The notes under the pieces are model-generated. The model worked only from the letters and a program-made list of their open reading frames with translations. It did no database searches and was not told where the DNA came from. DNA of 64,000 nt from Protonemura montana (lineage: Eukaryota > Arthropoda > Insecta > Plecoptera > Nemouridae): assembly GCA_947568835.1 (NCBI GenBank), contig OX387603.1:1118501-1182500 (forward strand), given 5' to 3'. Shown piece by piece: positions 33,916 to 58,880 of the stretch. Within the stretch, counting starts at the first letter, position 1, and every line of letters begins with the position of its first letter. The translations under genes were made by a program, and so were the position numbers.

Positions 33916-34425
33916 TGTTGAACCTAGCCTAGAAGGGAGGAGGGGAAACCCGGTGCCGGCACGTAGCCTACTCCTGTCGAAGAGCACCAAGGGGACCACC
34001 GGCTTAACGTCCCTTCCAAAGGACGGTACAACGCGAACAACAGGATTCCTTCACAAATCCATGCTGTCAAAGGTTGATAAGCAAGGCGAGTAAAGTTGCT
34101 GTACTAACTTTCATCCCTCCAACCTCTCTCCCGAACAGAACTGGTCATGTGTATGATGGTCACCCGTCCAATACCTGACCCAGCGCAGTGTTGCTTAACT
34201 TTCATCCCTCCAACCTCTCTCCCAAACAGAACTGGTCATGTGTATGATGGTCACCCATCCAATACCTGACCCAGCGCAGTGTTGCTTAACTTTCATCCCT
34301 CCAACCTCTCTCCCGAACAGAACTGGTCATGTGTATGGGTCATTGTGTATCAAAGGGAAACCCGGTGCCGGCACGTAGCCTAATCCTGTCGAAGACCAAG
34401 GGGACCACCGGCTTAACTTCCAGCC
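33916..34425 (-). mobile_element. 5S-derived SINE, copy A (partial, nested)
   Basis: It shares the blocks AACCTAGCCTAGAAGGGAGG, GGTGCCGGCACGTAGCC, ACCACCGGCTTAACGTCCC and AGGTTGATAAGCAAGGCGAG, followed by about 2.6 of the 91-bp modules. The 5S head is missing. A second short piece of the same central block is repeated at about 34352-34425. Confidence 0.85.
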
Positions 34426-38945: not shown

Positions 38946-41900
38946 TCATAAAATATGAATCTGCAGATATGGATATGCGATTCTCTTGTAAAGTACTGTC
39001 TTTCCCTGCGGCCGCTTCGTTGGCCAAAGTCGCCAAAAGTCTATCCCCTCGATTGACTCACCGTGCTTGCATCGTAGCTCGCGCTCGAAATTGTGCAGCT
39101 GCTCCATGAAGTGAAAGTTCGGTGCGATGTTTGCCTTGCGACTGCGCACGAGATTGAATGCATCGTTGAGCGACAAGGACAGCGAGGACATCAAATAAGC
39201 AACGGTGACCGTCACCGATCGCGACACGCCAGCGAGGCAGTGGACGAGGACGCTCTTCTGCGAAGTCCGGGCTTCGTCTGGAACAAAACATTGGAGGTTA
39301 GGTTCGATTCATTGATTTGTGGTGTTTAACAACGCACTGTTTTGACACCAGGCCATGCGGCACTGGTCTAATGGCGTCGGTGAATGAGTGGATGATGATG
39401 AATCTAACCTAGCCTAGAAGGGAGGAGGGGAAACCCGGTACCGGCACGTAGCCTACTCCTGTCGAAGACCAAGGGGACCACCGGCTTAACGTCCCTTCCG
39501 AAGGACGGTACAACGCGAACAACAGGATTCCTCCACAAATCCATGCTGTCGAGAGGTTGATAAGCAAGGCGAGTGAAGTTGCTGTACTAACTTTCATCCC
39601 TCCAACCTCTCTCCAGAACAGAACTGGTCATGTGTATTATGGTCACCCATCCAATACCTGACCCAGCGCAGTGTTGCTTAACTTTCATCTCTCCAACCTC
39701 TCTCCCGAACAGAACTGGTCATGTGTATGATGGTCACCCATTCAATACCTGACCCAGCGCAGTGTTGCTTAACTTTCATCCCTCCAACCTCTCTCCCGAA
39801 CAGAACTGGTCATGTGTATGATGGTCACTCATCCAATACCTGACCCAGCGCAGTGTTGCTTAACTTTCATCCCTCCAACCTCTCTCCCGAACAGAACTGG
39901 TCATGTGTATGATGGTCACCCATCCAATACATGACCCAGCGCAGTGTTGCTTAACTTTCATCCCTCCAACCTCTCTCCCGAACAGAACTGGTCATGTGTA
40001 TGATGGTCACCCATCCAATACCTGACCCAGCGCAGTGTTGCTTAACTTTCATCCCTCCAACCTCTCTCCCGAACAGAACTGGTCATGTGTATGATGGTCA
40101 CCCATCCAATACCTGACTAAGCGCAGTGTTGCTTAACTTCGGTGATCAAACGAGAACCGGTGTTTCCAACATGAAAAACTGTTCGGTTGCGCTGGTAGAA
40201 GACCCCATCCATCCCTTGCTTTGGTGCTATGGCTGCTATGGGTGCTATGGGTGTTATGGCTGCTATGGGTGCTATGGGTGCTATGGGTCTTGTGGGTGAA
40301 TGGTCTGGAAACCAGGTTAAGGTCACGCGCTATCTATGGAGTTGGTATTGATCGCGATTCCGTCGCTCGTGGGCGGCGGCGGCTGCGGGGGCGGCAGCGA
40401 CGGGTGGCGGCGGGAGGCGGGGGGGACAGCTACAGTTGGATGAGTGACTCATTCACAGTCACGTAGATTCGCTGGAAGCGCGGCTCAATTGCAAGGGGAG
40501 TGAATTAAGCGGCAAGATTTGTCAGAGAAAGACCGTCATGTTTTAGCTCCTGTCGGCTTCGTCTGTGGTCATCCGAGCTCTTGCTTTGCTCCCAGCATCG
40601 TGACTCGTTGTTTGCTGGGCGATAGCTTCTATCAAGTTGGAGATCGGGGTCCAAGTAGCTCAATTGGTTAGAGCAACACCCGCGATAAGTGGAGATCGGG
40701 GTCCAAGTAGCTCAATTGGTTAGAGCAACACCCGCGACAGGTGGAGATCAGGGTCCAAGGAGCTCAATTGGTTAGAGCAACACCCGCGACAGGTGGAGAT
40801 CGGGGTCCAAGTAGCTCAATTGGTTAGACCAACACCCGCGACAGGTGGAGATCGGGGTCCAAGTAGCTCAATTGGTTAGAGCAACACCCGCGACAGGTGG
40901 AAATCGGGTTTTGAGTCCCCGTTTGGGCATCAATTTTTGAGATTGTTATAGTGTTGATAATAATAATAAATAACAACAAGTTAGCTATGTTCTTGCAAGA
41001 AACAAAGGTAGGGAGAAAAGACGGCCCTGGGTAATGACAACGCGCCTCTTTGATGTAAGCCCAGAAAAAGAGAACACGTGAAGATTTGTGAATACGTTAG
41101 ACAGGAGCATCTTAGAAAAGTTGGCTGTCTTATCTTATGACAGCTGTGAAATCGTCAGAATTCCAGTGCTAGTGAGATTCTGAATGAATGTCAATAATGA
41201 AAATAAATGACGGTGAACGTGTTTTTCACGGCTAAATTACAAATTGCGAACCAAATTATTGAATTGGCATCGAATGTACAGAAAATAATTGTCTCTAACT
41301 AATGTAGTTATCACCATTCAAATGACAGTTTCACTTGTATGCTTATAGAAAAACTGAAGTGGTCGACACATGCCAATGTGCTGTTGAACAAATCAAATAC
41401 AAATACAAAATACCAATTCCTAGGTAAATACACGTTAAGTCGACATAAATTAGGTCGGGAAACAATTAGCTTGGTTACAAAGCCCAATATTTAGTAACAA
41501 AATGATTGAAATAAGTTGAAACGGTACGGCGCCAGATGAATGAGTCCACGGTTCGGTAGGGAACGTGCCACGATATTGTGGGGGTGTCAGGCAGCTCCTA
41601 GGTCTGGTCGGGGCGCCGATCAATACCGTACTATGCCATTCAAAGCACACCATCCATTCATCAAACGGGACGCCAGGAGGGTGCCACTGGGTGCTACCTT
41701 CACGGGTGCTTGGCTAAAGATGCGACTCCATTTTACACATTTGGATAAATTCGTGAGACGGTGAAGTGCGTAGACAACGCAGGTTCGTCTCAAAATCGTC
41801 TCAAAAAGTCAGTGTCGAAGTAGTGTAATGGGAGAATCCATTGATGCCCCAGATTCTCGGGCGAGAGAATTCATTGAGACATTCTCAACAAACTGGAGCA

Positions 41901-44900
41901 ACATTTTTACATGAAATCTTTATTTCAATTGCAAACGCTTGCAATGCGCGGGGTATTTTATTATTATCAACACTAGAACCGTCTCAAAAGTTGATGCCCA
42001 AACGCGGACTCGAACCCCGATCTCCACCTGTCGCGGGTGTTGCTCTAACCAATTGAGCTACTTGGACCCCGATCTCCACCTGTCGCGGGTGTTGCTCTAA
42101 CCAATTGAGCTACTTGGACCCCGATCTCCACCTGTCGCGGGTGTTGCTCCAACCAATTGAGCTGCTTGGACCCCGATCTCCACCTATCGCGGGTGTTGCT
42201 CTAACCAATTGAGCTACTTGGACACTGGTTAAAGTGTTGATATTAATAAAATACCCCGCGCATTGCAAGCGTTTGCAATTTAAATCAGATTTCATCTAAA
42301 ATACACCGCATCCAAGTAGCTCAATTGGTTAGAGCAACACCTGCGACAGGTGGAGATCGGGGTCCAAGTAGCTCAATTGGTTAGAGCAACACCCACGACA
42401 GGTGGAGATCGGGGTCCAAGTAGCTCAATTGGTTAGAGCAACACCCACGACAGGTGGAGATCGGGGTCCAAGTAGCTCAATTGGTTAGAACAACACCCAC
42501 GACAGGTGGAGATCGGAGTTCGAGTCCCCGTTTGGGCATCAACTTTTGAGACGGTTATAGCGTTGTTAATAATAAAATACTCAAACAGCATCTTCAGCAA
42601 GATGGCGGACTTACCTATGAAGTCGATGGCTGCCGGGAAGAAACTTGCCAAGTTCTGACTCCAGTGGTCAGCGATTGGGATCTGCATGTACTTCATCGTC
42701 TCTGAGCCCTCGAACACGTTGGGCAAGTCGGGAGTCACGTTCAGGATGTACTGAAAAAAAACTGGACTTGAGCACTTCACTCGTGGGGACCAAGGTTCGT
42801 GACCCGGGCTCGTGACCCGGGCTCGTGACCCGGGCTCGTGACCCGGGCTCGTGACCCGGGCTCGTGACCCGGCTCATTAAAGAAGCTTAGGGGCAAAAAT
42901 TTGACAAAAATCATCGCGCGCTTTTCAACGTACTTATTTTCAGAGAGAAGACGAATCTTTCCTTTAATTCTAATCCTCTCATTTATTTATTTGTGGTGTT
43001 TAACGACGCAATGTTTTACATCTAGCCATGCGGCACTGGTCTAATGGCGTCGGTGAATGAGTGGATGATGATGAACCTAACCTAGCATAGAAGGGAGAAG
43101 GGGAAACCCGGTGCCGGCACGTAGCCTACTCCTGTCGAAGACCAAGGGGACCACCGGCTTAACGTCCCTTCCGAAGGACGGTACAACGCAAACAACAGGA
43201 TTCCTCCACAAATCCATGCTGTCGAGAGGTTGATAAGCAAGGCGAGTGAAGTTGCTGTACTAACTTTCATCCCTCCAACCTCTCTCCCAAACAGAACTGG
43301 TCATGTGTATGATGGTCACCCATCCGATACCTGACCCAGCGCAGTGTTGCTTAACTTTCATCCCTACAACCTCTCTCCCAAACAGAACTGGTCATGTGTA
43401 TGATGGTCACCCATCCAATACCTGACTGAGCGCAGTGTTGCTTAACTTCGGTGATCTAACAAGAACCGGTGTTTCTAACACACCAAACAGTTTGGTATCC
43501 TCTAATTATTGTCGGAGACGATGCTCGAACCTACAAGTCTTGTACCAGAACAAGAAGACCATCTGGTTGGGTCTGGGTCTTTGATGGTCACGTGCTAAGT
43601 ACCAATGTTTAGGGAGCCAACATTACAAGATGGTCAACTTGGGTCCCTCGACAACAACAGCTATTTTATGAGAAAAAAAAATGAAAATCACTTATGGTGG
43701 TATTTGATGATTTTTTCCGTCCTGCTATGGGATGGCTGTATGGGGCAAGCAATGGAGCTACATGCCATGCACGTGTACAAAATGGCCGCCTGTCTGAACT
43801 CACCTGTATTCCGTGCCTGTCCAACGACTCGCTGTCCTCGCTGTTGGCGGCGTTGCCTAGGAAGAGGTTGGGCACGATCTCGACAGGGAAATCGCGGTCG
43901 TCGTCCAGTCCCAGTGAGGAGTCACATCGGTCGTCAGAGTCGCTAGAATCACTGGACGCTGTCGCCGAGGAGCCACAAGAACCGACTTGCTGGCGTCCAC
44001 GCTGTAGAGAAAACCATGCTGGGGATGATGTTTCGTTGCCGGGACCCTAGCTAAACTAACCTAACCTAACCCAACCTAAAAGAACCTAACACAACCATCC
44101 TCGTGTTGATGTTTAGTTGCCAGGACCCCAGCCTACCTAGCCTAACATAACCCAACTTCAACCAACCCTAACCTGACCCAACCAAACCCAACCTCGTGTT
44201 GATGTTTCGTTGCCAGGACCCCAGCCAACCTAACCTAACCTAACCCAACCTAACCCAACCTAACACAACCTAACCCAACCATCCTCGTGTTGATGTTTAG
44301 TTGCCAGGACCCCAGCCAACCTAGCCTGACATAACCCAACTTCAACCAACCCTAACCTAACCCAACCCAACCTAACCTAACCTAACCTAACCTAACCTAA
44401 CCTAACCTAACATAACCTAACCTAACCTGACCTAACCTTCTTGACACGAAAGTCCCAAGTATTGCAAACAAATTCAAACATTTTCAGTTAAACGGACGAT
44501 AATTAAATTAACTTGGTGTTTGCAAACCACATTCGTACTTTGATTGTTGACTTGAACTGAAAGAACAAAGAAGTGAAGACTCAGCAACTCAGTGGCAAAC
44601 ACCTGCCAGGAAGTCGAGGTGCAGTGCTTGAAATGCATCACATGTTTAGCTTGAAAATAATGTCTTAAATCGTGCAAACTCAAGACTTACCTTGGAGACG
44701 GGTGCGACAGAAGATATCCGGAGCGTACGCAGCCCCATGAGCGGCACGACGTCCTGGCCGGGGTTCGAACCGGCGACCATCAGGTCCGAGCAGCTCTCAC
44801 ACCACTCGGGGTAACCGGCGCGGAACCCAGGGAATCCACCTGGAACCAGGAACAAGATTAGTTAGCACACAGAGTTGGCTGCTCCTGTACAACAGCACCA

Positions 44901-47900
44901 AGGACCGGCCACCGCTTAGCCTTGTCACTTTGACACACTGTGTTGGCTGCTCCTGTCCAACAGCACCAAGGACCGGCCACCGCTTAGCCTTGTCACTTTG
45001 ACACACTGTGTTGGCTGCTCCTGTCCAACAGCACCAAGGACCGGCCACCGCTTAGCCTTGTCACTTTGACACACTGTGTTGGCTGCTCCTGTACAACAGC
45101 ACCAAGGACCGGCCACCGCTTAGCCTTGTCACTTTGACACACTGTGTTGGCTGCTCCTGTCCAACAGCACCAAGGACCGGCCACCGCTTAGCCTTTCACT
45201 TTGACACAATTTGTTGGCTGCTCCTGTCCAACAGCACCAAGGACCGGCCACCGCTTAGCCTTGTCACTTTGACACACTGTGTTGGCTGCTCCTGTCCAAC
45301 AGCACCAAGGACCGGCCACCGCTTAGCCTTGTCACTTTGACACACTGTGTTGGCTGCTCCTGTCCAACAGCACCAAGGACCGGCCACCGCTTAGCCTTGT
45401 CACTTTGACACACTGTGTTGGCTGCTCCTGTCCAACAGCACCAAGGACCGGCCACCGCTTAGCCTTGTCACTTTGACACACTGTGTTGGCTGCTCCTGTA
45501 CAACAGCACCAAGGACCGGCCACCGCTTAGCCTTGTCACTTTGACACACTTTGTTGGCTGCTCCTATCCTTGCCTTGCTTATCAACCTCTCGACAGCATG
45601 GATTTGTGGAGGAATCCTGTTGTTCGCGTTGTACCGTCCTTCGGAAGGGACGTTAAGCCGGTGGTCCCCTTGGTCTTCGACAGGAGTAGGCTACGTGCCG
45701 GCACCGGGTTTCCCCTCCTCCCTTCTAGTCTATCCTCGTTGAACATTGCGTGACGTAGCTATCCATTGACAAAACCCGCCTGAATGTTTGCTCCTAACGG
45801 GGCCCTCGTGACGTCACGGGGGGAGTCGAGTGGTTGACAGGAAGTCTATCAGATATCAGCTGCCCACGCAGAGAATCGAAGCCCGGACCTCGGCACCGCG
45901 TTCCCCCGCGTGCAGCGAACTATATTTATCCTCCAGTTGTTTATGATAAGAATCTTGAGTTGGTGTTCAAAACAACGCCGCGCACGCGCATCTTGAGCTA
46001 GGTTGGTGTGGGTCCCAGATCATATTTAGTTTTATATATGTAGATAATATATAATATAATATAATCGGTCCTTTATAAAATTCTATATTTGGGTTTGTTT
46101 TGTTGGTATTTCAAGCGGCAGGAACAATTTTCAAAACGCCTTTGTCTGAAAAATTGTTCTTGAAGCTTAAATGTATTCTGTGACTGACGCCAGAAGACGA
46201 GTACAACAGTGCGGCGTTAAACAGTGCGGCGTTAAACAATACGTCGTTAAACATTGTGGCGTTAAACATTGCGTCGTTGAACAGATCGTTGGGAACAACA
46301 TGACGTTAAACCGTACATAAAAAAACGATGCGTCGTTAAACCGTGTAGTTAAACAATGCGTCGTTGAACAGTGCGTCGTTGAACAATGCGTCGTTGAACA
46401 GTGCGTGATCGACGCAAGTCAGGACGCAAGACTCGACTGAGGGGCGTGACCTTGAGAAGGTCGACTGCTACGAAACATGCGTAGACAGCGCATCGCTGGG
46501 CAGAGTCGATGTAAATCACTGCGTCGTGGAATTCGTTGTGAATTCCAAGGTGGATAAATAACAAGATGATGATTTGAACAAACAAATGAAGGTGGCTAAA
46601 GAAAGATGGATGTCGAAAAATACTAAAATCCTTTCGAGTGCAAAAAGGATTAATTTTGTGTCAAATCTTGTTCGATCAAACAAAGAGACTTTAAATTGCC
46701 AACAAAGTTGTGTGATCCCGTTTAAAAAGTATCAACCGTTCGGTGATCACCCATTCAATACCTGACCCAGCGCAGTGTTGCTTAACTTTCATCCCTCCAA
46801 CCTCTCTCCCGAACAGAACTGGTCATGTGTATGATGGTCACCCATCCAATACCTGACCCAGCGCAGTGTTGCTTAACTTTCATCACTCCAACCTCTCTCC
46901 CGAACAGAACTGGTCATGTGTATGATGGTCACCCATCCAATACCTGACGCAACGCAGTGTTGCTTAACTTTCATCCCTCCAACCTCTCTCCCGAACAGAA
47001 CTGGTCATGTGTATGATGGTCACCCATCCAATACCTGACCCAGCGCAGTGTTGCTTAACTTTCATCCCTCCAACCTCTCTCCCGAACAGAACTGGTCATG
47101 TGTATGATGGTCACCCATCCAATACCTGACCCAGCGCAGTGTTGCTTAACTTTCATCCCTCCAAACTCTCTCCCGAACAGAACTGGTCATGTGTATACGA
47201 GGACCGGTGTTTCGAAAACGATCGACGCAATATGACATCCGAGTCTCAACCAATCAGCTCCCACCTCCCACCAATCACCCAGCACCCAGCACCCAGCAGC
47301 ATCGCCGGCGCTAAAAGCCACCCCGTGTAAATTCGCACTCCCATAGGTCAGTTCAGCCACGTGACCTCCACGCCGTTCAAAGCCCTGACATCGGTCGGCG
47401 CCCACGCCAGGAGCCGGGGGTAGGGGACGTCGCCCACGCAGCTCGGAACGCGTGGGAGTCGAACCCACGCTCCATAGCACAGTAGACGCCCCCGCCGCGA
47501 GGGAGAGAAATACTTCAAGTTCCAGAGAGGCGATGGGATTTCGGGTTCACGTGGGAGGAAAGGCTAGCAGCGGACGTGGGCGTCATAGCGGTGCCTTTGT
47601 GCCTCGTTGTAATGCGTTGGTGACAGGCACAGTTTACTCCAGACAAGAAGATTATATTTCCTCTTTGCGTGGAGCGAAACAAGCGCCCTGTCACGGAATG
47701 TCCAGCACAGAGGCGACGGCGAGTGTCCGCTCCTTTGCATGGAGCGAAACAAGCGCCCTGTCACGGAATGTCCAGCACAGAGGCGACGGCGAGTGTCCGC
47801 TCCTTTGCATGGAGCGAATCAAGCGCCCTGTCACGGAATGTCCAGCACAGAGGCGACGGCGAGTGTCCGCTCCTTTGCGTGGAGCGAAACAAGCGCCCTG

Positions 47901-50900
47901 TCACGGAATGTCCAGCACAGAGGCGACGGCGAGTGTCCGCTCCTTTGCGTGGAGCGAAACAAGCGCCCTGTCACGGAATGTCCAGCACAGAGGCGACGGC
48001 GAGTGTCCGCTCCTTTGCGTGGAGCGAAACAAGCGCCCTGTCACGGAATGTCCAGCACAGAGGCGACGGCGAGTGTCCGCTCCTTTGCGTGGAGCGAAAC
48101 AAGCGCCCTGTCACGGAATGTCCAGCACAGAGGCGACGGCGAGTGTCCGCTCCTTTGCGTGGAGCGAAACAAGCGCCCTGTCACGGAATGTCCAGCACAG
48201 AGGCGACGGCGAGTGTCCGCTCCTTTGCGTGGAGCGAAACAAGCGCCCTGTCACGGAATGTCCAGCACAGAGGCGACGGCGAGTGTCCGCTCCTTTGCGT
48301 GGAGCGAAACAAGCACCCTGTCACGGAATGTCCAGCACAGAGGCGACGGCGAGTGTCCGCTCCTTTGCGTGGAGCGAAACAAGCGCCCTGTCACGGAATG
48401 TCCAGCACAGAGGCGACGGCGAGTGTCCGCTCCTTTGCGTGGAGCGAAACAAGCGCCCTGTCACGGAATGTCCAGCACAGAGGCGACGGCGAGTGTCCGC
48501 TCCTTTGCGTGGAGCGAAACAAGCGCCCTGTCACGGAATGTCCAGCACAGAGGCGACGGCGAGTGTCCGCTCCTTTGCGTGGAGCGAAACAAGCGCCCTG
48601 TCACAGAATGTCCAGCACAGAGGCGACGGCGAGTGTCCGCTCCTTTGCGTGGAGTGAAACAAGCGCCCTGTCACGGAATGTCCAGCACAGAGGCGACGGC
48701 GAGTGTCTGCTCCTTTGCGTGGAGCGAAACAAGCGCCCTGTCACGGAATGTCCAGCACAGAGGCGACGGCGAGTGTCCGCTCCTTTGCGTGGAGCGAAAC
48801 AAGCGCCCTGTCACGGAATGTCCAGCACAGAGGCGACGGCGAGTGTCCGCTCCTTTGCATGGAGCGAAACAAGCGCCCTGTCACGGAATGTCCAGCACAG
48901 AGGCGACGGCGAGTGTCCGCTCCTTTGCGTGGAGCGAAACAAGCGCCCTGTCACGGAATGTCCAGCACAGAGGCGACGGCGAGTGTCCGCTCCTTTGCGT
49001 GGAGCGAAACAAGCGCCCTGTCACGGAATGTCCAGCACAGAGGCGACGGCGAGTGTCCGCTCCTTTGCGTGGAGCGAAACAAGCGCCCTGTCACGGAATG
49101 TCCAGCACAGAGGCGACGGCGAGGTTCTGCCCAACTCTGACGTCAGAGTTGGGCGACTTGACCCCGGATGTGGTGATGGTTGCGTCCCGCCGGGAGTGAC
49201 GTCACTGAGCCAGACCTGCTCGCTGTCCACGATGCCGTGACATGGGTCGCGAGGTTCAGCAACAATGCTTCTGTTCTGGGTGTTGGATGGGTGACCTCTG
49301 ACTTAGAAACCTTCAGGGCCTTGCTTCGAAGCCTACCATTCTCACTAGGGGTCTTTACTAGGTGCTAGTCGTTGAAAAATGTCTCTGTGTTATTCTTATG
49401 GGATATGTTTTTCCAAGCAGTCCAATGTACTAGGTGCTAGTGGTTGAAAAATGTCTCTGTGTTATTCTTATGGGCCATGTTTTTCCAAGCAGTCCAATGT
49501 ACTAGGTGCTAGTGGTTGAAAAATGTCTCTGTGTTATTCTTATGGGACATGTTTTTCCAAGCAGTCCAATGTACTTGGTGCTAGTCGTTGAAAAATGTCT
49601 CTGTGTTATTCTTATGGGCCATGTTTTTCCAAGCAGTTCAATGTACTAGGTGCTAGTGGTTGAAAAATGTCTCTGTGTTATTCTTATGGGCCATGTTTTT
49701 CCAAGCAGTCCAATGTACTAGGTGCTAGTCGTTGAAAAATGTCTCTGTGTTATTCTTATGGGCCATGTTTTTCCAAGCAGTCCAATGTACTAGGTGCTAG
49801 TGGTTGAAAAATGTCTCCGTGTTATTCCTATGGGCCATGTTTTTCCAAGCAGTCCAATGTACTAGGTGCTAGTCGTTGAAAAATGTCTCCGTGTTATTCC
49901 TATGGGCCATGTTTTTCCAAGCAGTCCAATGTACTAGGTGCTAGTCGTTGAAAAATGTCTCCGTGTTATTCCTATGGGCCATGTTTTTCCAAGCAGTCCA
50001 ATGCACTTGGTGCTAGTGGTTGAAAATTGTCTCTGTGTTATTCCTATGGGCCATGTTTTTCCAAGCAGTCCAATGTACTAGGTGCTAGTGGTTGAAAAAT
50101 GTCTCTGTGTTATTCCTATGGGCCATGTTTTTCCAAGCAGTCCAATGTACTAGGTGCTAGTCGTTGAAAAATGTCTCCGTGTTATTCCTATGGGCCATGT
50201 TTTTCCAAGCAGTCCAATGCACTTGGTGCTAGTGGTTGAAAAATGTCTCTGTGTTATTCTTATGGGATATGTTTTTCCAAGCAGTCCAATGTACTAGGTG
50301 CTAGTGGTTGAAAAATGTCTCTGTGTTATTCTTATGGGCCATGTTTTTCCAAGCAGTCCAATGTACTAGGTGCTAGTGGTTGAAAAATGTCTCTGTGTTA
50401 TTCTTATGGGCCATGTTTTTCCAAGCAGTCCAATGTACTAGGTGCTAGTAGTTGAAAAATGTCTCTGTGTTATTCTTATGGACCATGTTTTTCCAAGCAG
50501 TTCAATGTACTAGGTGCTAGTAGTTGAAAAATGTCTCTGTGTTATTCTTATGGGCCATGTTTTTCCAAGCAGTCCAATGTACTAGGTGCTAGCGGTTGAA
50601 AAATGTCTCTGTGTTATTCTTATGGGATATGTTTTTCCAAGCAGTCCCATGTACTAGGTGCTAGTGGTTGAAAAATGTCTCTGTGTTATTCTTATGGGAC
50701 ATGTTTTTCCAAGCAGTCCAATGTACTAGGTGCTAGTGGTTGAAAAATGTCTCTGTGTTATTCTTATGGGCCATGTTTTTCCAAGCAGTCCAATGTTCTA
50801 GGTGCTAGTGGTTGAACAATTCCTCTGCGTTATTCTTATGGGCCATGTTTTTCCAAGCAGTCCAATGTACTAGGTGCTGGTGGTTGAAAAATGTCTCTGT

Positions 50901-53900
50901 GTTATTCTTATGGGATATGTTTTTCCAAGCAGTCCAATGTACTAGGTGCTAGTGGTTGAAAAATGTCTCTGTGTTATTCTTATGGGATATGTTTTTCCAA
51001 GCAGTCCAATGTACTAGGTGCTAGTGATTGAAAAATGTCTCTGTGTTATTCTTATGGGATATGTTTTTCCAAGCAGTCCAATGTACTAGGTGCTAGTGAT
51101 TGAAAAATGTCTCTGTGTTATTCTTATGGGCCATGTTTTTCCAAGCAGTCCAATGTACTTGGTGCTAGTGGTTGAACAATGTCTCTGTGTTATTCTTATG
51201 GGATATGTTTTTCCAAGCAGTCCAATGTACTAGGTGCTAGTGATTGAAAAATGTCTCTGTGTTATTCTTATGGGATATGTTTTTCCAAGCAGTCCAATGT
51301 ACTAGGTGCTAGTGGTTGAACAATGCCTCTGCGTTATTCTTATGGGCCATGTTTTTCCAAGCAGTCCAATGTACTAGGTGCTAGTGGTTGAAAAATGTCT
51401 CTGTGTTATTCTTATGGGATATGTTTTTCCAAGCAGTCCCATGTACCAGGAGCTCATTCAGAGTTTTGAGGCCGGGACTTCGGCTGTCGGAGCTACACAT
51501 TGACTTGCTAATATTTTCATTCTAATTCTGATGTGTTTACAAAACGTATCCGGTGCAGCATCTTGGTCGGGATGAAACGCAGTGAAAGCCACGTGAGGGC
51601 GTTTCAACAGCTTCCTCTTCTCACACGGCAAGGCCAGGAAGGGATGACGTCGCAAAGTCGACCTATACTCTCTTGAGCAGACAACTTAAAGAGTCAATTC
51701 TGAGATGGAAAAATATAAATTTTCAACTCGGTTTGATTTATTTGTGGTGTTTAACGATGCACTGTTTTGACAACGCTCCATGTGGCACTGGTCTAATGGC
51801 GTCGGTTAATCAGAAGATGATGATGAACTTAAGCTTAAACCCAGTGCCGGCACGTAGCCTACTCCTGTCGAAGACCAAGGGGACCACCGGCTTAACGTCC
51901 CTTCCAAAGAACGGTACAACGCGAACAACAGGATTCCTCCACAAATCCATGCTGTCGAGAGGTTGATAAGCAAGGCGAGTGAAGTTGCTGTACCAACTTT
52001 CATCCCTCCAACCTCTCTTCCGAACAGAACTGGTCATGTGTATGATGGTCACCCATTCAATACCTGACCCAGCGCAGTGTCGCTTAACTTTCATCCCTCC
52101 AACCTCTCTCCCGAACAGAACTGGTCCTGTGTATGATGGTCACCCATCCAACACCTGACCCAGCACAGTGTTGCTTAACTTTCATCCCTCCAACCTCTCT
52201 CCCGAACAGAACTTGTCATGTGTATGATGTTCACCCATCCAATACCTGACCCAGCGCAGTGTTGCTTAACTTTCATCCCTCCAACCTCTCTGCCGAACAG
52301 AACTGGTCATGTGTATGATGGTCACCCATCCAATACCTGTCCCAGCGCAGTGTTGCTTAACTTTCATCCCTCCAACCTCTCTCCCGAACAGAACTGGTCA
52401 TGTGTATGATGGTCACCCATTCAATACCTGACCCAGCGCAGTGTCGCTTAACTTTCATCCCTCCAACCTGTCTCCCGAACAGAACTTGTCATGTGTATGA
52501 TGTTCACCCATTCAATACCTGACTCAGCGCAGTGTTGCTTAACTTTCATCCCTCCAACCTCTCTCCCGAACAGAACTGGTCATGTGTATGATGGTCACCC
52601 ATCCAATACCTGCTATGCTCGGTGCTATGGTTTTACCGAGGGTCAGGTATTTAAGATATAGCCGTGCAAGACAATGCCGGTGTCCGCTGATGAACGGAAA
52701 GGAGTCGCCGCCGTTCGTCTCGCCAGGCTACAGCATCCTGTTCCTCAGACAGTGGCGTAACGTTGCTAACCAGTGGCGCAGACATATACGAACAAGTCGC
52801 GTGGCGGCCATTCTTCTACGAGTTCTTATCCTGAAAGTACAGGTTGTGCAGGTTGTGCAGGTTGTGCAGGTTGTGCAGGTTGTGCAGGTTGTGCAGGTTG
52901 TGCAGGTTGTGCAGGTTGTGCAGGTTGTGCAGGTTGTGCAGGTTGTGCAGGTTGTGCAGGTTGTGCAGGTTGTGCAGGTTGTGCAGGTTGTACAGGTTGT
53001 GCAGGTTGTGCAGGTTGTGCAGGTTGTGCAGGTTGTGCAGGTTGTACAGGTTGTGCAGGTTGTGCAGGTTGTGCAGGTTGTGCAGGTTGTGCAGGTTGTG
53101 CAGGTTGTGCAGGTTGTGCAGGTTGTGCAGGTTGTGCAGGTTGTGCAGGTTGTGCAGGTTGTGCAGGTTGTGCAGGTTGTGCAGGTTGTGCAGGTTGTGC
53201 AGGTTGTGCAGGTTGTACAGGTTGTGCAGGTTGTGCAGGTTGTGCAGGTTGTGCAGGTTGTGCAGGTTGTGCAGGTTGTACAGGTTGTGCAGGTTGTACA
53301 GGTTGTGCAGGTTGTGCAGGTTGTGCAGGTTGTGCAGGTTGTGCAGGTTGTGCAGATGCAATCGGGGCCAATGGAAGACATCTCAAGACAGAATCGAGTT
53401 TAGTAAAGAGACGTTGGTTGGAGAAGGTCGGTAGTCATGGCGACGAGTTCCTTAAATATCATGGCTCGATCCGTTTCCGGTGCTCGTTGTTCAGAAGTAA
53501 ACTTCCGCTGCCGCCGCCGCCGAGAAGACGCCCACTTCCTCCCCCCTCCCCTCCCCTCCCATCCGCGGGGCAGACCGGCCGTTGGTAGCTCTTTGTCCGG
53601 CGAGACAAGCTCAAGCATGGATCAACATTTTAAGTATCACACCCCCTTCCGTCTTGCAACCCTAACTGGGACCTTCTCACGTCGCCCCGGGCGTTGAAAG
53701 AGATTTGCATTGGCGTAGCTTTCAAGCGAACCGGGCGTCTAACAATTCCATACCCGCTTGTACATAGCCACGTGAAACAAGCAAGCTGTTGAAACGCCTC
53801 TCTCCAGCAGCCAGCGTATTGCTATGGGATTGTTGCTACACTTCAAGACACCGGCCACGTGAAGGCGTCTAACAATTCCATCCCCGCTTGTACATAGCCA

Positions 53901-55759
53901 CGTGAAACAAGCAAGCTGTTGAAACGCCTCTCTCCAGCAGCCAGCGTATTGCTATGGGATTGTTGCTACACTTCAAGACACCGGCCACGTGAAGGCGTCT
54001 AACAATTCCATCCCCACTTGTACATAGCCACGTGAAACAAGCAAGCTGTTGAAACGCCTCTCTCCAGCAGCCAGCGTATTGCTATGGGATTGTTGCTACA
54101 CTTCAAGACACCGGCCACGTGAAGGCGTCTAACAATTCCATCCCCGCTTGTACATAGCCACGTGAAACAAGCAAGCTGTTGAAACGCCTCTCTCCAGGAG
54201 CCAGCGTATTGCTATGGGATTGATGCTACACTTCAAGACACCGGCCACGTAAAGGCGTCTAACAATTCCATCCCCGCTTGTACATAGCCACGTGAAACAA
54301 GCAATACGCTGGCTCCTGGAGAGAGGCGTTTCAACAGCTTGCTTGTTCCTACACGGCTATGTACAGCCCTGTGTCGGATGGAGGCGAGTTCGATCCCAGG
54401 TCGGCGCATTGTGTCGGACATTTGATCGCCTCGACGGGATTCGAACCAGAGGCTCGGAATGTCGCTCTGTTCCGCCCGAATGGTCGTGCGTGTAAAACGG
54501 AGTGCGTGGAATGCGTGTGGGAAACGCATTCATTTGCTGTTGTTGAGGTCGCCTGAGTTAAGCAACAATGCACCGAGTCTAGCATCGAATGGGTGACCAG
54601 TAATCTAATTGAGTGGTAAGGGGGTACCTGTTTTGATTGGAATACTTAAGTGGTGAAAGATATTGTGTGAAGGCTTGGGAGTAATCATTCATTGAACTAA
54701 AGGGCCATTAGGCAATGATGAATGAAAGATGTCTTAATTTGATTAGACAGAAATAACAAAGATAAGCGAGCAACACATTAATGGTTTCTGTTATCAGTGC
54801 TTAGGTCGACAACCTATGTGATAAGGGACAAGGTCGCAAGGTCTCGGCTTTTTTTTTGCATGGCCTTGCTCGGCGATAATCACATTTTCTTGGTACTTTT
54901 ATTGTTGCGATCTAACGACCGCCGCTCGTGGCTTTCCTTTGACGGTACTGACATTCTGTCACTTAGCTATCAGGCACGGTGACACCTCGAAATATCAAAC
55001 AATTTTCAACACCGCTTCGTGCTGATGCTGTTTTTAAGAGTCATTTTCAACGTTTAAAGAAATATGAATGGAAATATAGACCAATCAGGAGTCCTGTCTG
55101 AAAGATTGAATTGAAATGCAAACGTGATGGCCAAGATTTCGTGAAATTTAGGTCCATGCTAGTTTTTGTTGAGTTGGTACCTCAATATTGATATAGATTT
55201 GATGCAAACTAAACAGTGATTTTGACATTTCTGCAAATTTCCTACCCGGCCACGGAACAACAACAATAAAATCGGCCAGCAAGAGAAGAACGGCGTACCG
55301 AACCAATGACCGTCTAGCAAAAAAAACAGCAGGTCGTGTGTTTATGACAAAACGCTCACCTTCGAGACATACGACTTGGCATCCATCCTGGGTCAACCTC
55401 TTGGCTAGCACACGTATCGTGGTCGTCTCGTTCGATGTCTGCTCTGTCACCACAAAGTCCCCGTAGATCACAAACAAATCATTCTCCTTGTACGCACTCG
55501 TGATCTTCTCCTTCAAATCGCGGCATTTGATCGTGGAAACTAGATCTATCTTGCCAGCCGCCAGCCGTCGCAACATAATGCTCGGTATGCTAAAGTTGAC
55601 CGCGTTTCTGATGTGTGAATCACTAAACTCACTGCTAGATCGACAATCGATTATCACCAAGCGCGACGTGTTGTTTCTCAATTGTTGAAACAGCCATTCT
55701 TGAGAGACGCAGAGCTCCATCATCGCTAGGCGCTCGCAGTCAGACTCGGAAGGCATCAT
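38946..55759 (-). CDS. MAP-kinase phosphatase, DUSP6/7/9 type
   Basis: Exons (minus strand): 55759-55360, 44839-44691, 44001-43804, 42750-42615, 39277-38946. Junctions are GT-AG, phases agree, and the protein is about 404 aa. An upstream in-frame ATG at 55843 would add 28 residues. The N-terminal rhodanese/CH2 domain has the ERK-docking motif IMLRRL at about residues 61-66 and [12 protein letters not shown]. Then come [16 protein letters not shown] and an acidic Ser/Asp linker. The catalytic domain has [28 protein letters not shown], the general acid D277 in ADHWSQN, catalytic C308 in HCLAGVSRS and the MKP hallmark VTVAYLM. It dephosphorylates Thr and Tyr of ERK-type MAP kinases, most likely in the cytoplasm. 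A strong donor, CACG then GTGAGT at 39061, suggests the last exon may really end at 39062 with a further exon unseen. Intron 1 spans 10.5 kb. Confidence 0.92.
39309..40172 (-). mobile_element. 5S-derived SINE, copy B (longest, with 5S head)
   Basis: In element orientation (minus) the 5' end reads ACACCGGTTCTCGTTTGATC, ACCGAAGTTAAGCAACACTG, then GTATTGGATGGGTGACC (about 40096-40168). These align with the 3' two thirds of 5S rRNA, covering box A, the intermediate element and box C. About six 91-bp modules follow, each repeating box A to box C, then the unique body. The tail ends AACACCACAAAT. It lies in DUSP intron 4. Confidence 0.85.
40215..40300. repeat. 9-bp repeat (GGTGCTATG)n
   Basis: About nine imperfect copies in DUSP intron 4. 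A short G-rich segment (40360-40440) follows. The rest of 40300-40640 shows nothing recognisable. Confidence 0.9.
40645..40985 (+). mobile_element. tRNA-derived SINE with five tandem 5' heads
   Basis: Five 52-bp units start GTCCAAGTAGCTCAATTGGT and continue TAGAGCAACACCCGCGACAG then GTGGAGATCGGG. Each carries a pol III A box (TAGCTCAATTGG). Only after the last is the T arm present (GGGTTTTGAGTCCCCG), here with a degenerate B box, followed by TTTGGGCATCAA and an AT-rich body. A tRNA cloverleaf can be drawn over the last head, but position 33 is G rather than T, so this is a SINE and not a functional tRNA. Confidence 0.85.
40986..41904. other. DUSP intron 4 segment; nothing recognised
   Basis: AT-rich sequence with no tandem repeat. 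A GC-richer patch at about 41520-41720 has no identifiable gene or element. Confidence 0.4.
41905..42300 (-). mobile_element. tRNA-derived SINE, four heads, flanked by inverted body modules
   Basis: Minus orientation: four A-box heads (complement reads CTAACCAATTGAGCTACTTG) and one B box (ACTCGAACCCC) at about 42008. The 3' body to the left contains TTGCAAACGCTTGCAATGCG. A second body module in the opposite orientation lies at 42236-42290 (ATACCCCGCGCATTGCAAGC), making an inverted pair. Confidence 0.85.
42307..42580 (+). mobile_element. tRNA-derived SINE with four tandem 5' heads
   Basis: Four 52-bp A-box heads are followed by one B box (GAGTTCGAGTCCCCG), TTTGGGCATCAAC and a truncated body ending in AATAATAAAATACTC. 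It ends about 35 bp from the DUSP exon 4 donor at 42614. Confidence 0.85.
42795..42870. repeat. 13-bp repeat (GCTCGTGACCCGG), about 6 copies
   Basis: A perfect short array in DUSP intron 3, with a CCCGGG in each junction. It begins 45 bp from the exon 4 acceptor. Confidence 0.95.
42970..43472 (-). mobile_element. 5S-derived SINE, copy C (with 5S head and tail)
   Basis: The compact copy. The tail (element orientation) is AACACCACAAATAAATAAAT at 42977-42996. Then come the body, about two 91-bp modules, and the 5S head at about 43405-43470 (ACACCGGTTCTTGTTAGATC then ACCGAAGTTAAGC). The rest of the intron, 43473-43803, shows nothing recognised. Confidence 0.88.
44015..44440. repeat. CCTAA/CCCAACC-rich block with 90-100-bp blocks
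   Basis: In DUSP intron 2. The end at about 44365-44440 is a nearly pure run of CCTAA pentamers, the complement of TTAGG. Before it, a block containing GTGTTGATGTTT then TTGCCAGGACCCCAGCC recurs at about 44105, 44195 and 44285, each time followed by degenerate CCTAA/CCCAA sequence. Confidence 0.85.
44866..45562. repeat. 68-bp minisatellite, about 10 copies
   Basis: The unit is CTGTGTTGGCTGCTCCTGTC, CAACAGCACCAAGGACCGGC, CACCGCTTAGCCTTGTCACT, TTGACACA. It starts 27 bp from the DUSP exon 2 acceptor. The core GCTCCTGTC..AGCACCAAGG..CCACCG.CTTA resembles the centre of the 5S-derived SINE (ACTCCTGTCGAAG.CCAAGGGGACCACCGGCTTA). It runs directly into an inverted piece of that SINE. Confidence 0.95.
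45563..45750 (+). mobile_element. 5S-derived SINE, copy D (fragment, opposite orientation)
   Basis: It contains CTTGCTTATCAACCTCTCGA, AAGGGACGTTAAGCCGGTGG and GGCTACGTGCCGGCACC. This is the central body only, without 5S head or tail. It joins the 68-bp array directly. Confidence 0.85.
45809..45816. promoter_or_regulatory. CRE-like site TGACGTCA in DUSP intron 1
   Basis: A perfect ATF/CREB octamer inside a 12-bp palindrome CGTGACGTCACG. Other perfect copies lie at 49138-49145, 49197-49204 and 56920-56927. Function is not shown. Confidence 0.4.
46205..46410. repeat. 15-bp degenerate minisatellite (GCGTCGTTAAACAAT)n
   Basis: About 13 imperfect copies with a short interruption. The unit matches the 3' tail of the 5S-derived SINE (AAACATTGCGTCGTTAAACA in copy C), so it probably arose from a SINE tail. 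46411-46739 shows nothing else recognised. Confidence 0.85.
46740..47200 (-). repeat. Array of 91-bp 5S-ICR modules, about 4.8 copies
   Basis: Each module (minus orientation) contains AAGTTAAGCAACACTGCGCT and GTATTGGATGGGTGACC, then a 47-bp non-5S segment with ACATGACCAGTTCTGTTCGG. Unlike copies A, B, C and F, no SINE body is attached, only the modules. Confidence 0.93.
47201..47659. other. Intron 1 segment with a tRNA-like SINE remnant
   Basis: About 47430-47500 (minus) contains GCGTGGGTTCGACTCCCACG, a good T-arm/B-box hairpin (GGTTCGACTCC), but no convincing A box or anticodon arm, so I call it a SINE remnant. Nothing else is recognised. Confidence 0.5.
47660..49122. repeat. 70-bp minisatellite, about 21 copies
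   Basis: The unit is TCCGCTCCTTTGCGTGGAGC, GAAACAAGCGCCCTGTCACG, GAATGTCCAGCACAGAGGCG, ACGGCGAGTG. Copies are nearly identical, differing by single bases such as GCATGG for GCGTGG. Because 70 is not a multiple of 3 and the unit has no stop in any plus frame, all three plus frames stay open for over 1.3 kb. These are not treated as genes. Confidence 0.98.
49129..49154. promoter_or_regulatory. 26-bp perfect palindrome centred on TGACGTCA
   Basis: The left half is GCCCAACTCTGAC and the right half is its exact reverse complement, GTCAGAGTTGGGC. The centre is a perfect ATF/CREB octamer. It abuts the end of the 70-bp array and lies 43 bp from a second TGACGTCA (49197-49204). It could be a dimer-binding site or a remnant of palindrome formation at an array edge. 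Confidence 0.6.
49225..49300 (+). mobile_element. 5S-like internal-promoter fragment
   Basis: GAGGTTCAGCAACAATGCTT and GTGTTGGATGGGTGACC match the box A to box C region of 5S. The surrounding sequence differs from the main 5S-SINE, so this is either an older copy or another subfamily. Confidence 0.6.
49357..51447. repeat. 72-bp minisatellite, about 29 copies
   Basis: The unit is CTAGGTGCTAGTGGTTGAAA, AATGTCTCTGTGTTATTCTT, ATGGGCCATGTTTTTCCAAG, CAGTCCAATGTA. Variants (GGATATG, GTCGTTG, TCTCCGTG) cluster in sub-blocks, showing local amplification. It is in DUSP intron 1. 51448-51734 shows no identified feature beyond GGGCGTTTCAACAGCTT, shared with the 130-bp repeat. Confidence 0.98.
51735..52614 (-). 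mobile_element. 5S-derived SINE, copy F
   Basis: The tail is at 51735 (GATTTATTTGTGGTGTTTAA), then the body, then almost seven 91-bp modules. It is truncated inside a module at 52614, so the 5S head is missing. In DUSP intron 1. Confidence 0.88.
52837..53355. repeat. 9-bp minisatellite (CAGGTTGTG), about 58 copies
   Basis: Nearly perfect, with occasional TACAGG variants. It is open in all six frames, which yields low-complexity ORFs such as QVV or AGC repeats; none has other gene-like support. In DUSP intron 1. 53356-53734 carries no recognised feature. Confidence 0.98.
53735..54365. repeat. 130-bp repeat, 4.3 copies, ending in an inverted copy
   Basis: The unit starts GCGTCTAACAATTCCATCCC, includes GAAACAAGCAAGCTGTTGAA and ends GACACCGGCCACGTGAAG. 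The last partial unit runs to about 54301 and is followed at 54304-54365 by the same sequence inverted (CGCTGGCTCCTGGAGAGAGG onward), forming a hairpin. Each unit has a CACGTG-type E-box. Confidence 0.93.
54366..54660 (+). mobile_element. Composite repeat with tRNA-like and 5S-like segments
   Basis: It holds two B-box-like sequences (GAGTTCGATCCC on plus near 54387, and GGTTCGAATCCC on minus near 54438) and a 5S box A-C stretch at 54546-54600 (GAGTTAAGCAACAATGCACC then CATCGAATGGGTGACC). It may be a SINE joining the two pol III promoter types or two nested elements. 54661-55359 shows nothing recognised. Confidence 0.5.
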
Positions 55760-55843
55760 CGAAACCGAGCGATGCAAACTAGTAACGGTCCGATTTAAAA
55801 CGCGGCGTCGACACTGGCACAGATCACGTTGACACAAGAGCAC

Positions 55844-56640
55844 GTTTCGAGTGGTTGCACAGAGATTTCATCGCGTTGTCGAGGCGATTCGGTGTGGAAA
55901 TGTTGAGTGAGTGTTCGTTGACTTTTGAGGTATGAGCGAGGCAACACAAACCACACCTTCACGACGAGTGCGGATCTCTTCTCAGAACGATGCGACGCGG
56001 CGCTCCAAGCGGCGAGATTGGTGAAGCTTGCGCCTGGGCCAGTGGCGTACCGGCGTGTGCGATCGATTCAGATGTACCAGATTCGAGCCCCGATCGCGAT
56101 AGTTGACTATTACGTGCGGCCGAAATGTATTCTTCTGGATGTAAGTAAGGGATAATGCAAGGGATTATGCCAGACATCATCTAGGTACCTGCTTGCAGAT
56201 CATATTTAAATACAATTAGTTAGAAGATTTCTTAATTGATAGCCCATTATTTCGGTTTTAGCGAACCAAAATTGAAACAGATGCTCGCTCAAATATAGCC
56301 GTATGATTTTTGTTACTCAAGTATGCACGTTTTGTTATTATTTCCTTTCTAAATTTTACTATAATCTGATTTGTAAATTTTCCACCGCGTCACCATGAGT
56401 CGACTCATGGAATTTAATTTCTAACAACACATAATTTAACAATTTCCTGGAACCTTTAACATTCTTCATTACATTCTTCCTGCGTTACTAATCTGATTCA
56501 AATCTTCCAAGCCTCTTTCTTCCTTTCCCAACTTTCTCCACTTTACCGTATATCCAAGTCCAATGCGAGACCATACCTCGGTCGCGAAACCATTCACATG
56601 CCATAGAGTCTTTAAATTTATAAATATAATATAATATATT
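55844..56640. promoter_or_regulatory. DUSP upstream region
   Basis: The sequence 5' to the minus-strand DUSP start should hold its promoter and 5' UTR. A tRNA-like scrap (CCAGATTCGAGCCCCGATCG) lies near 56080. 56200-56640 is AT-rich without a recognised feature. No TATA box was assigned. Confidence 0.4.
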
Positions 56641-57106: not shown

Positions 57107-58880
57107 GATTTATTTGTGGTGTTTAACATAGCACTGTTTTGACAACGCTCCATGTGGCGCTGGTCTAATGATGATGAGCCTAACTTAGCCTAGAAGGGAG
57201 GAGGGGAAACCCGGTGCCGGCACGTAGCCTACTCCTGTCGAAGACCAAGGGGACCACCGGCTTAACGTCCCTTCCGAAGGACGGTACAACGCGAACAGCA
57301 GGATTCCTCCACAAATCCATGCTGTCGAGAGGTTGATAAGCAAGGCGAGTGAAGTTGCTGTCGAGAGGTTGATAAGCAAGGCGAGTGAAGTTGCTGTCGA
57401 GAGGTTGATAAGCAAGGCGAGTGAAGTTGCTGTCGAGAGGTTGATAAGCAAGGCGAGTGAAGTTGCTGTCGAGAGGTTGATAAGCAAGGCGAGTGAAGTT
57501 GCTGTCTAGAGGTTGATAAGCAAGGCGAGTGAAGTTGCTGTCGAGAGGTTGATAAGCAAGGCGAGTGAAGTTGCTGTCGAGAGGTTGATAAGCAAGGCGA
57601 GTGAAGTTGCTGTCGAGAGGTTGATAAGCAAGGCGAGTGAAGTTGCTGTCGAGAGGTTGATAAGCAAGGCGAGTGAAGTTGCTGTCGAGAGGTTGATAAG
57701 CAAGGCGAGTGAAGTTGCTGTCTAGAGGTTGATAAGCAAGGCGAGTGAAGTTGCTGTCGAGAGGTTGATAAGCAAGGCGAGTGAAGTTGCTGTCGAGAGG
57801 TTGATAAGCAAGGCGAGTGAAGTTGCTGTCTAGAGGTTGATAAGCAAGGCGAGTGAAGTTGCTGTCGATAGGTTGATAAGCAAGGCGAGTGAAGTTGCTG
57901 TCGAGAGGTTGATAAGCAAGGCGAGTGAAGTTGCTGTCGAGAGGTTGATAAGCAAGGCGAGTGAAGTTGCTGTCGAGAGGTTGATAAGCAAGGCGAGTGA
58001 AGTTGCTGTCGAGAGGTTGATAAGCAAGGCGAGTGAAGTTGCTGTTGAGAGGTTGATAAGCAAGGCGAGTGAAGTTGCTGTCGAGAGGTTGATAAGCAAG
58101 GCGAGTGAAGTTGCTGTCGAGAGGTTGATAAGCAAGGCAAGTGAAGTTGCTGTCGAGAGGTTGATAAGCAAGGCGAGTGAAGTTGCTGTCAAGAGGTTGA
58201 TAAGCAAGGCGAGTGAAGTTGCTGTCGAGAGGTTGATAAGCAAGGCGAGTGAAGTTGCTGTTGAGAGGTTGATAAGCAAGGCGAGTGAAGTTGCTGTCGA
58301 GAGGTTGATAAGCAAGGCGAGTGAAGTTGCTGTCGAGAGGTTGATAAGCAAGGCAAGTGAAGTTGCTGTCGAGAGGTTGATAAGCAAGGCGAGTGAAGTT
58401 GCTGTCAAGAGGTTGATAAGCAAGGCGAGTGAAGTTGCTGTCGAGAGGTTGATAAGCAAGGCGAGTGAAGTTGCTGTCGAGAGGTTGATAAGCAAGGCGA
58501 GTGAAGTTGCTGTTGAGAGGTTGATAAGCAAGGCGAGTGAAGTTGCTGTCGAGAGGTTGATAAGCAAGGCGAGTGAAGTTGCTGTCGAGAGGTTGATAAG
58601 CAAGGCAAGTGAAGTTGCTGTTGAGAGGTTGATAAGCAAGGCGAGTGAAGTTGCTGTCAAGAGGTTGATAAGCAAGGCGAGTGAAGTTGCTGTCGAGAGG
58701 TTGATAAGCAAGGCGAGTGAAGTTGCTGTCGAGAGGTTGATAAGCAAGGCAAGTGAAGTTGCTGTCGAGAGGTTGATAAGCAAGGCGAGTGAAGTTGCTG
58801 TCAAGAGGTTGATAAGCAAGGCGAGTGAAGTTGCTGGCGAGAGGTTGATAAGCAAGGCGAGTGAAGTTGCTGTACTAATC
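57107..58880 (-). mobile_element. 5S-derived SINE, copy G, with an internal 36-bp array (about 43 copies)
   Basis: The tail (TTTATTTGTGGTGTTTAAC) and body are as in the other copies. The segment GTCGAGAGGTTGATAAGCAA then GGCGAGTGAAGTTGCT, present once elsewhere, is here repeated about 43 times (57321-58872). There are no 91-bp modules or 5S head; the copy stops at GCTGTACTAA. Variant units (GTTGAGAG, GGCAAGTG, GTCAAGAG) recur with 216-bp and then 252-bp spacing, a higher-order pattern of six and seven units. The unit is a multiple of three bases and open on both strands, so the long ORFs here are artefacts. Confidence 0.95.

Follow-up and report, generated by a model that had tools for sequence, protein, structure and literature searches.

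SINE-derived satellites (sSats) of squamates are, going by the accessible parts of the report by Vassetzky and others (PMC10702118), the closest described system to the one analysed here. They show a subtelomeric preference, number up to thousands of loci per species and alternate unit variants in their long loci; the snake sSat unit of 67 nt includes promoter box B. The arrays of Protonemura montana share with them a tandemly repeated SINE portion with longer end units that reach the SINE termini, a promoter box in the unit (as in the snake sSat), many loci, the subtelomeric preference and the alternation of unit variants. The squamate sSats are tRNA-related and usually extended at one end, whereas the element described here is derived from 5S rRNA and extended at both. 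Furthermore, unlike in the squamate system as those parts of the report present it, unit number here tracks the subfamily of the SINE body, and multi-unit copies carry target-site duplications. The same authors report no true dimeric Squam SINEs in that text.

Elements of the SINE3 type (such as HaSE3 of Helicoverpa, PMC3272025, and the families in PMC10886601) share with the copies here a body, a tail and a 5S-derived head that contains box A, the intermediate element and box C; the accessible sections of these accounts do not mention tandem control-region units, unlike what we describe. Judging from the same partial texts, dimeric SINEs such as Alu (PMC10702118) resemble the present element as multi-part elements that amplify as multimers, but Alu-type SINEs are dimers and the loci read here hold 1 to 19 units, while Cassandra and Ajax (PMC10886601) also carry 5S promoter sequence in a retroelement but are LTR retrotransposons with that sequence in their LTRs. 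Among the open-licence papers listed in literature searches, none describes, by title or start of abstract, a SINE whose 5S control region is tandemly repeated, which is a weak negative.

The window is a stretch of 64,000 nucleotides at 1.12-1.18 Mb on contig C2, in an assembly that has 34 contigs and totals 258 Mb. On the minus strand of the window, 39309-40187 is occupied by a 5S rRNA-derived SINE made up of a head, six 91-bp units and a body with tail. The head (40138..40187, 50 bp, with +1 at 40187) is 5S-derived, lies upstream of box A and was delimited with Rfam and by alignment to the genome's own 5S gene; Rfam matched 5S rRNA at 40067-40187 on the minus strand with 61.4 bits (cut-off 38). 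The six tandem units (39592..40137) were defined by Tandem Repeats Finder, which reported period 91 at 39588-40139 with 6.1 copies, together with a unit scan and the alignment of two units. In each unit, a spacer of 49 bp comes after box A, the intermediate element and the core of box C on its 5′ side. The body and 3′ tail (39309..39591), identified from sequence, run from GTTAGTACAGC to GTTAAACACCAC and end in a short A-rich repeat; they are also present in plain one-unit copies elsewhere in the genome.

A sequence-only reading had proposed a 5S-derived SINE with a tandemly multiplied internal-promoter segment, and the Rfam match, the period-91 array and the alignment to the genome's own 5S gene bear this out. 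It had called for that alignment and had named a box A-box C spacing unfit for binding as the finding that would speak against it. We found 34 of 42 bases equal between a unit and the 5S gene, from GTTAAGC to GGGTGACC and without a gap, so box A and box C stand exactly as far apart as in 5S. The claim that each unit spans box A, intermediate element and box C thus holds for the spacing but not for the full extent, because the 3′ part of box C is missing from the units, as it is from the one-unit copies read; the positions of the boxes within 5S are those that we take to be the usual ones. The Rfam model served to find the genome's own 5S genes; it scored 47 candidates, all above the cut-off. 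In the first 50 kb of contig C11 such genes recur, two plus and one minus per ~9.5 kb, as if they were part of a larger tandem unit, perhaps rDNA. The proposed joining of units at a GAA(A)GTTA microhomology was supported as well, and the proposed extent of 39309..40172 needed correction, as the element runs along the minus strand from a 5′ end at 40187.

Four other period-91 arrays were found in the window, all on the minus strand. A second copy with units and 5S head (43261..43496; repeat finder and Rfam) has 2 units and a 7-bp target-site duplication, with an Rfam 5S match at 43376-43496 on the minus strand (50.2 bits) and period 91 at 43261-43448 in 2.1 copies. Tandem Repeats Finder and the unit scan further revealed ~2.6 units of a copy without a recognisable head, followed by a body (34105..34337); an array of ~5 units (4.9) in which no body was found and which has a 5S head fragment just upstream (46747..47196); and a headless copy with ~6.8 units and body, whose 5′ end lies inside a unit (51995..52612). 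The variable unit counts noted from the sequence agree with those of Tandem Repeats Finder (2.6, 6.1, 2.1, 4.9 and 6.8). Matches within the arrays were 95-97% in four of the five and 94% in 51995-52612. A further minus-strand array (57320..58873; repeat finder) repeats a 36-bp unit 43 times; this unit is taken from the promoter-free body of the 5S SINE described above, and its copies meet at an ACAGCA microhomology.

A dual-specificity phosphatase gene of the same orientation appears to contain the SINE in one of its introns. Of the Pfam DSPc family, positions 67-132 match the reading frame 38946-39308 (85 bits), positions 13-68 match the reading frame 42433-42873 at 26.2 bits, below the family cut-off of 33.5, and a rhodanese domain lies further upstream (55148-55867). 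The probable gene would span 38946-55867 on the minus strand, with SINE arrays and minisatellites between its exons. The window also contains a 20.6-kb array of a 21/42-bp satellite (1-20631) and (AACCT)n arrays (44225-44438), which we take to recall the arthropod telomere repeat.

Genome-wide, the unit-unit junction gave 23,044 matches with at most one mismatch and a reversed control pattern gave 0, indicating that the abundance of these junctions is not due to chance; the junction between last unit and body gave 6,591 matches at the same tolerance. Exact patterns that include a stretch of the 5S head detected at least 817 one-unit copies and at least 849 copies with two or more units in the whole genome, both lower bounds since exact patterns miss diverged copies. 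The plain one-unit copy, which we take as the basic form, is ~424 bp long from head to tail. A tail with (AAT)n-like repeats was observed. As in SINE3, the head comes from 5S rRNA and contains box A, the intermediate element and box C, the last without its 3′ part; the copies are dispersed and non-coding, with clear target-site duplications in part of the loci.

Head-bearing copies, one-unit and multi-unit alike, typically start at ACCGAA, the place of 5S +1, with differing flanks. In multi-unit copies, target-site duplications were found at this start (within 1-2 bases) and after the tail. The six copies checked have 2-11 units and duplications of 9-15 bp: L033 (2 units, 14 bp), L083 (3 units, 9 bp), L084 (4 units, 15 bp), L020 (7 units, 9 bp), L005 (8 units, 9 bp) and L018 (11 units, 12 bp), the last being cut off at box A, where head and unit are indistinguishable. 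At many other loci a script search found only short duplications or none, and it found none for the window copy; duplications alone do not prove that an array predated its insertion. L003, L015, L016, L028, L085 and others lack a full head and start at most 11 bases upstream of the first box A; by eye, starts just before the first box A are more frequent than an even spread would give.

A run of four T is a simple stop signal for Pol III. Such runs are absent from 14 of 24 full-length multi-unit copies (2.0 expected by base shuffling) and from 5 of 14 full-length one-unit copies (2.5 expected). Full-length reading of multi-unit copies by Pol III appears possible, since 14 of 24 lack the signal. 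The scarcity of TTTT in multi-unit copies and the starts at 5S +1 are indirect signs of Pol III transcription. In the window copy, five T stand in a row around +10 of the head; this run would likely act as an early Pol III stop, and because of it the copy is probably a poor source of RNA.

We consider it probable that a SINE3 subfamily carries its tandem promoter segment along when it retroposes, and that it is remodelled as a subtelomeric minisatellite. A 5S-derived SINE of the SINE3 type would have duplicated the 91-bp segment between the box A of its head and the start of its body, at a short homology between GAAGTTAAGC and GAAAGTTAGTACAGC. The resulting multi-unit lineage would have arisen probably once or a few times and would have spread by retroposition, with the first 5S control region directing Pol III, which would read through all units, so that the whole array would pass through RNA; LINE-driven insertion at a new site would then produce the target-site duplication. 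After insertion, arrays would also gain or lose units on site as blocks are duplicated or lost, for the most part close to chromosome ends.

The association of unit number with the body subfamily is strong. Body base 19 is C in 1679 of 1857 multi-unit copies and in 406 of 854 one-unit copies, and T in 178 and 448, respectively (odds ratio 10.4; genome-wide exact patterns, of which the one-unit pattern requires the head and the multi-unit pattern does not); one of the two body types would presumably be the older. Three body sites differed between the 9 multi-unit and 14 one-unit copies among 23 from L031-L060 (P 0.003-0.007), a set chosen by a 25-base junction and not by body, from which L043, L046, L048 and L050 were dropped as their unit was unrecognised, and which is part of the larger set in which these sites were first spotted.

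Comparison of the units themselves pointed in the same direction. Among 71 arrays with body (55 multi-unit and 16 one-unit; first units excluded), unit divergence was 4.0% within and 4.6% between loci. The within-locus value of 0.0399 lay below the shuffled mean of 0.0458 and below the lowest of 200 shuffles (0.0433), and identical unit pairs made up 4.2% within loci compared with 1.2% after shuffling. Local likeness of units is therefore present yet small, and since units within a locus are more alike than shuffled ones, part of the array growth is local. Unit site 20, which is not a CpG, was polymorphic inside 33 of 44 loci with at least three units, and the CpG site 67 inside 26 of 44, the mean over sites being 4.6 loci. 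Variant pairs inside a single unit recurred in at least two loci in 46 cases, with a maximum of five loci. L007 (whose units are those of L006), L036 (overlapping L037) and L053 (overlapping L083) were left out of the divergence and conservation counts, and L082 and L084 additionally out of the site-polymorphism count. Because divergence within loci is close to that between loci and the polymorphism at site 20 is shared, much of the variety in the arrays seems older than their current place, and most arrays have not simply grown on site from one unit. The divergence values and the body-type table together rule out pure in-place expansion of random SINEs as the whole story.

A less extreme version, which we hold to be possible though doubtful, is a SINE-derived satellite in which one-unit SINEs near chromosome ends expand in place by unequal exchange and slippage, and arrays pass between loci through ectopic exchange instead of retroposition. 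The link between unit number and body subfamily and the polymorphism common to the arrays tell against it, and position is among the evidence in its favour. On contig C1, which the position test covers and where ends are those of the contig, 67 of 76 exact-head multi-unit copies are at most 4 Mb away from an end, compared with 23 of 59 exact-head copies with one unit (P 1.6e-9), a subtelomeric preference by distance to contig ends. The bias persists on C1 at fixed body type: for C19, 96 of the first 100 multi-unit matches listed (reaching to 32.4 Mb) were terminal compared with 19 of 31 one-unit copies, and for T19, 13 of 13 compared with 7 of 29. A greater terminal bias of multi-unit copies at equal body type is what would be expected if expansion happens there. 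Among one-unit copies, those with C19 were also more terminal than those with T19 (P 0.005). In the position-ordered C1 sample of 30 loci (L031-L060), 11 of the 13 in the first 2 Mb were multi-unit, with one one-unit and one unclassed, and 1 of the 17 between 2.6 and 14.2 Mb was multi-unit. Among the matches listed elsewhere, the distribution was at a glance two-ended on C2 to C4 and less clear on C5 and C11. The subtelomeric position of the squamate sSats, as given in the accessible text of PMC10702118, is also consistent with expansion at chromosome ends.

Direct traces of change in place were found as well. In L081, four unit variants recur as a block in unchanged order, the L081 and L084 copies with shared flank have 13 and 5 units, and the arms of an inverted repeat in L083 have 3 and 5; these observations establish that unit number also changes in DNA, in place. 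The inverted repeat of L083 is ~950 bp long and includes SINE and flank. At L081, L082 and L084, on C1, two multi-unit SINEs stand tail to tail at each place; a 2.7-kb interior is common to L081 and L082, L084 has about half of it, and the interior of L083 differs. We rejected the idea of a composite DNA transposon whose inverted ends are SINE arrays, as the L081-L082 match extends past the SINEs into shared flanks, which makes these loci copies of a larger repeat. The interior multi-unit loci L081, L082 and L084 share parts of that repeat and are not independent. Unit and body types could also become mixed when arrays close to chromosome ends exchange sequence.

The 36-bp body array, together with the many unrelated minisatellites in the window, favours expansion in place too. 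However, this promoter-free stretch gives 2,501 junctions genome-wide, with exact matches in 7 C1 loci, all beyond 31.1 Mb, compared with 76 C1 loci for the multi-unit exact-head 91-bp form. Arrays that bear the promoter are thus scattered much more widely than the promoter-free one, a difference that tells against expansion in place alone. Retroposition with the tandem segment accounts for it even if promoter strength is unchanged: as long as a working SINE keeps its head and tail, a duplication within it can be copied along.

The sequence-only reading had gone further and viewed the repetition as a promoter design, in which extra TFIIIA/TFIIIC sites may raise transcription. If such sites raised transcription or retroposition, multi-unit copies would have out-competed plain ones; we regard selection of this kind as improbable. 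The intact box spacing fits it, as does the fact that two unrelated SINE families in this genome multiply their promoter part. The second is a tRNA-type SINE, tRNA-Ser(CGA)-like, whose box A segment forms tandem units of 52 bp (40638..40908, plus strand; repeat finder) and further copies at 42014-42223 (minus) and 42311-42516 (plus), with tRNA matches at both. Its box A-unit junctions number 12,539 genome-wide, which with the 23,044 of the 5S element stand against the 2,501 promoter-free junctions. With this second family multiplying its box A part, a promoter effect is possible. On C1 this tRNA-type SINE forms at least three inverted pairs less than 1 kb apart, as in the window. Multi-unit copies also diverge less in the body: the median divergence from the overall majority was 0.026 for 2-4 units (n=9), 0.034 for five or more (n=37) and 0.055 for one unit (n=15), although most of the 37 copies were found with the window copy as query and dominate the majority sequence. 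From these values we infer that multi-unit copies may be younger than one-unit copies.

The units themselves do not bear the marks of selected promoters. In 315 inner units, with CpG sites and site 20 excluded, the 5S part diverged by 2.2% and the spacer by 1.7%, revealing no extra conservation of the 5S part over the spacer that would indicate selection on inner control regions, and box A and the box C core were both exact in only 170 of the 315. Insertions from inner promoters would be expected to begin 47-50 bases before GTTAAGC, but among starts inside a unit only 2 of 13 rows fell within 3 bases of that place, without clustering; one of these two is preceded by head sequence and represents a deletion, and among the remaining rows some do not mark true starts either. 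Initiation from inner units was rejected given this absence of clustering at inner +1 positions. With no extra conservation, no clustering of starts at inner promoters and a promoter-free stretch that is arrayed too, the promoter-design claim was not upheld. The evidence that extra promoters are useful is weak, and a benefit is possible. A more speculative idea is that promoter copy number is inherited and evolves, with tandem 5S control regions passing through RNA, gaining an advantage over the plain ancestor and doing so a second time in the tRNA-type SINE; we think this unlikely. A host role, with Pol III/TFIIIC arrays serving as chromatin boundaries or titrating TFIIIA near chromosome ends, accords with the location near contig ends and with a number of sites large enough in principle, but is highly improbable given sites without extra conservation and copies at unrelated insertion points with ordinary target-site duplications.

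Retroposition with the tandem segment, followed by reshaping near chromosome ends, therefore remains our preferred reading, and the repetition is most likely something that the element tolerates or mildly benefits from, and not a device of the host. The multiplication of a 5S (type 1) promoter segment indicates that not only tRNA-type segments can be multiplied in this way. The finding links dispersed retroposons and subtelomeric satellites, usually handled separately, within one genome, and opens the question of how SINEs seed satellites at chromosome ends. As plain and many-unit copies coexist by the hundreds, the effect of promoter number on retroposition can be asked directly in this genome.
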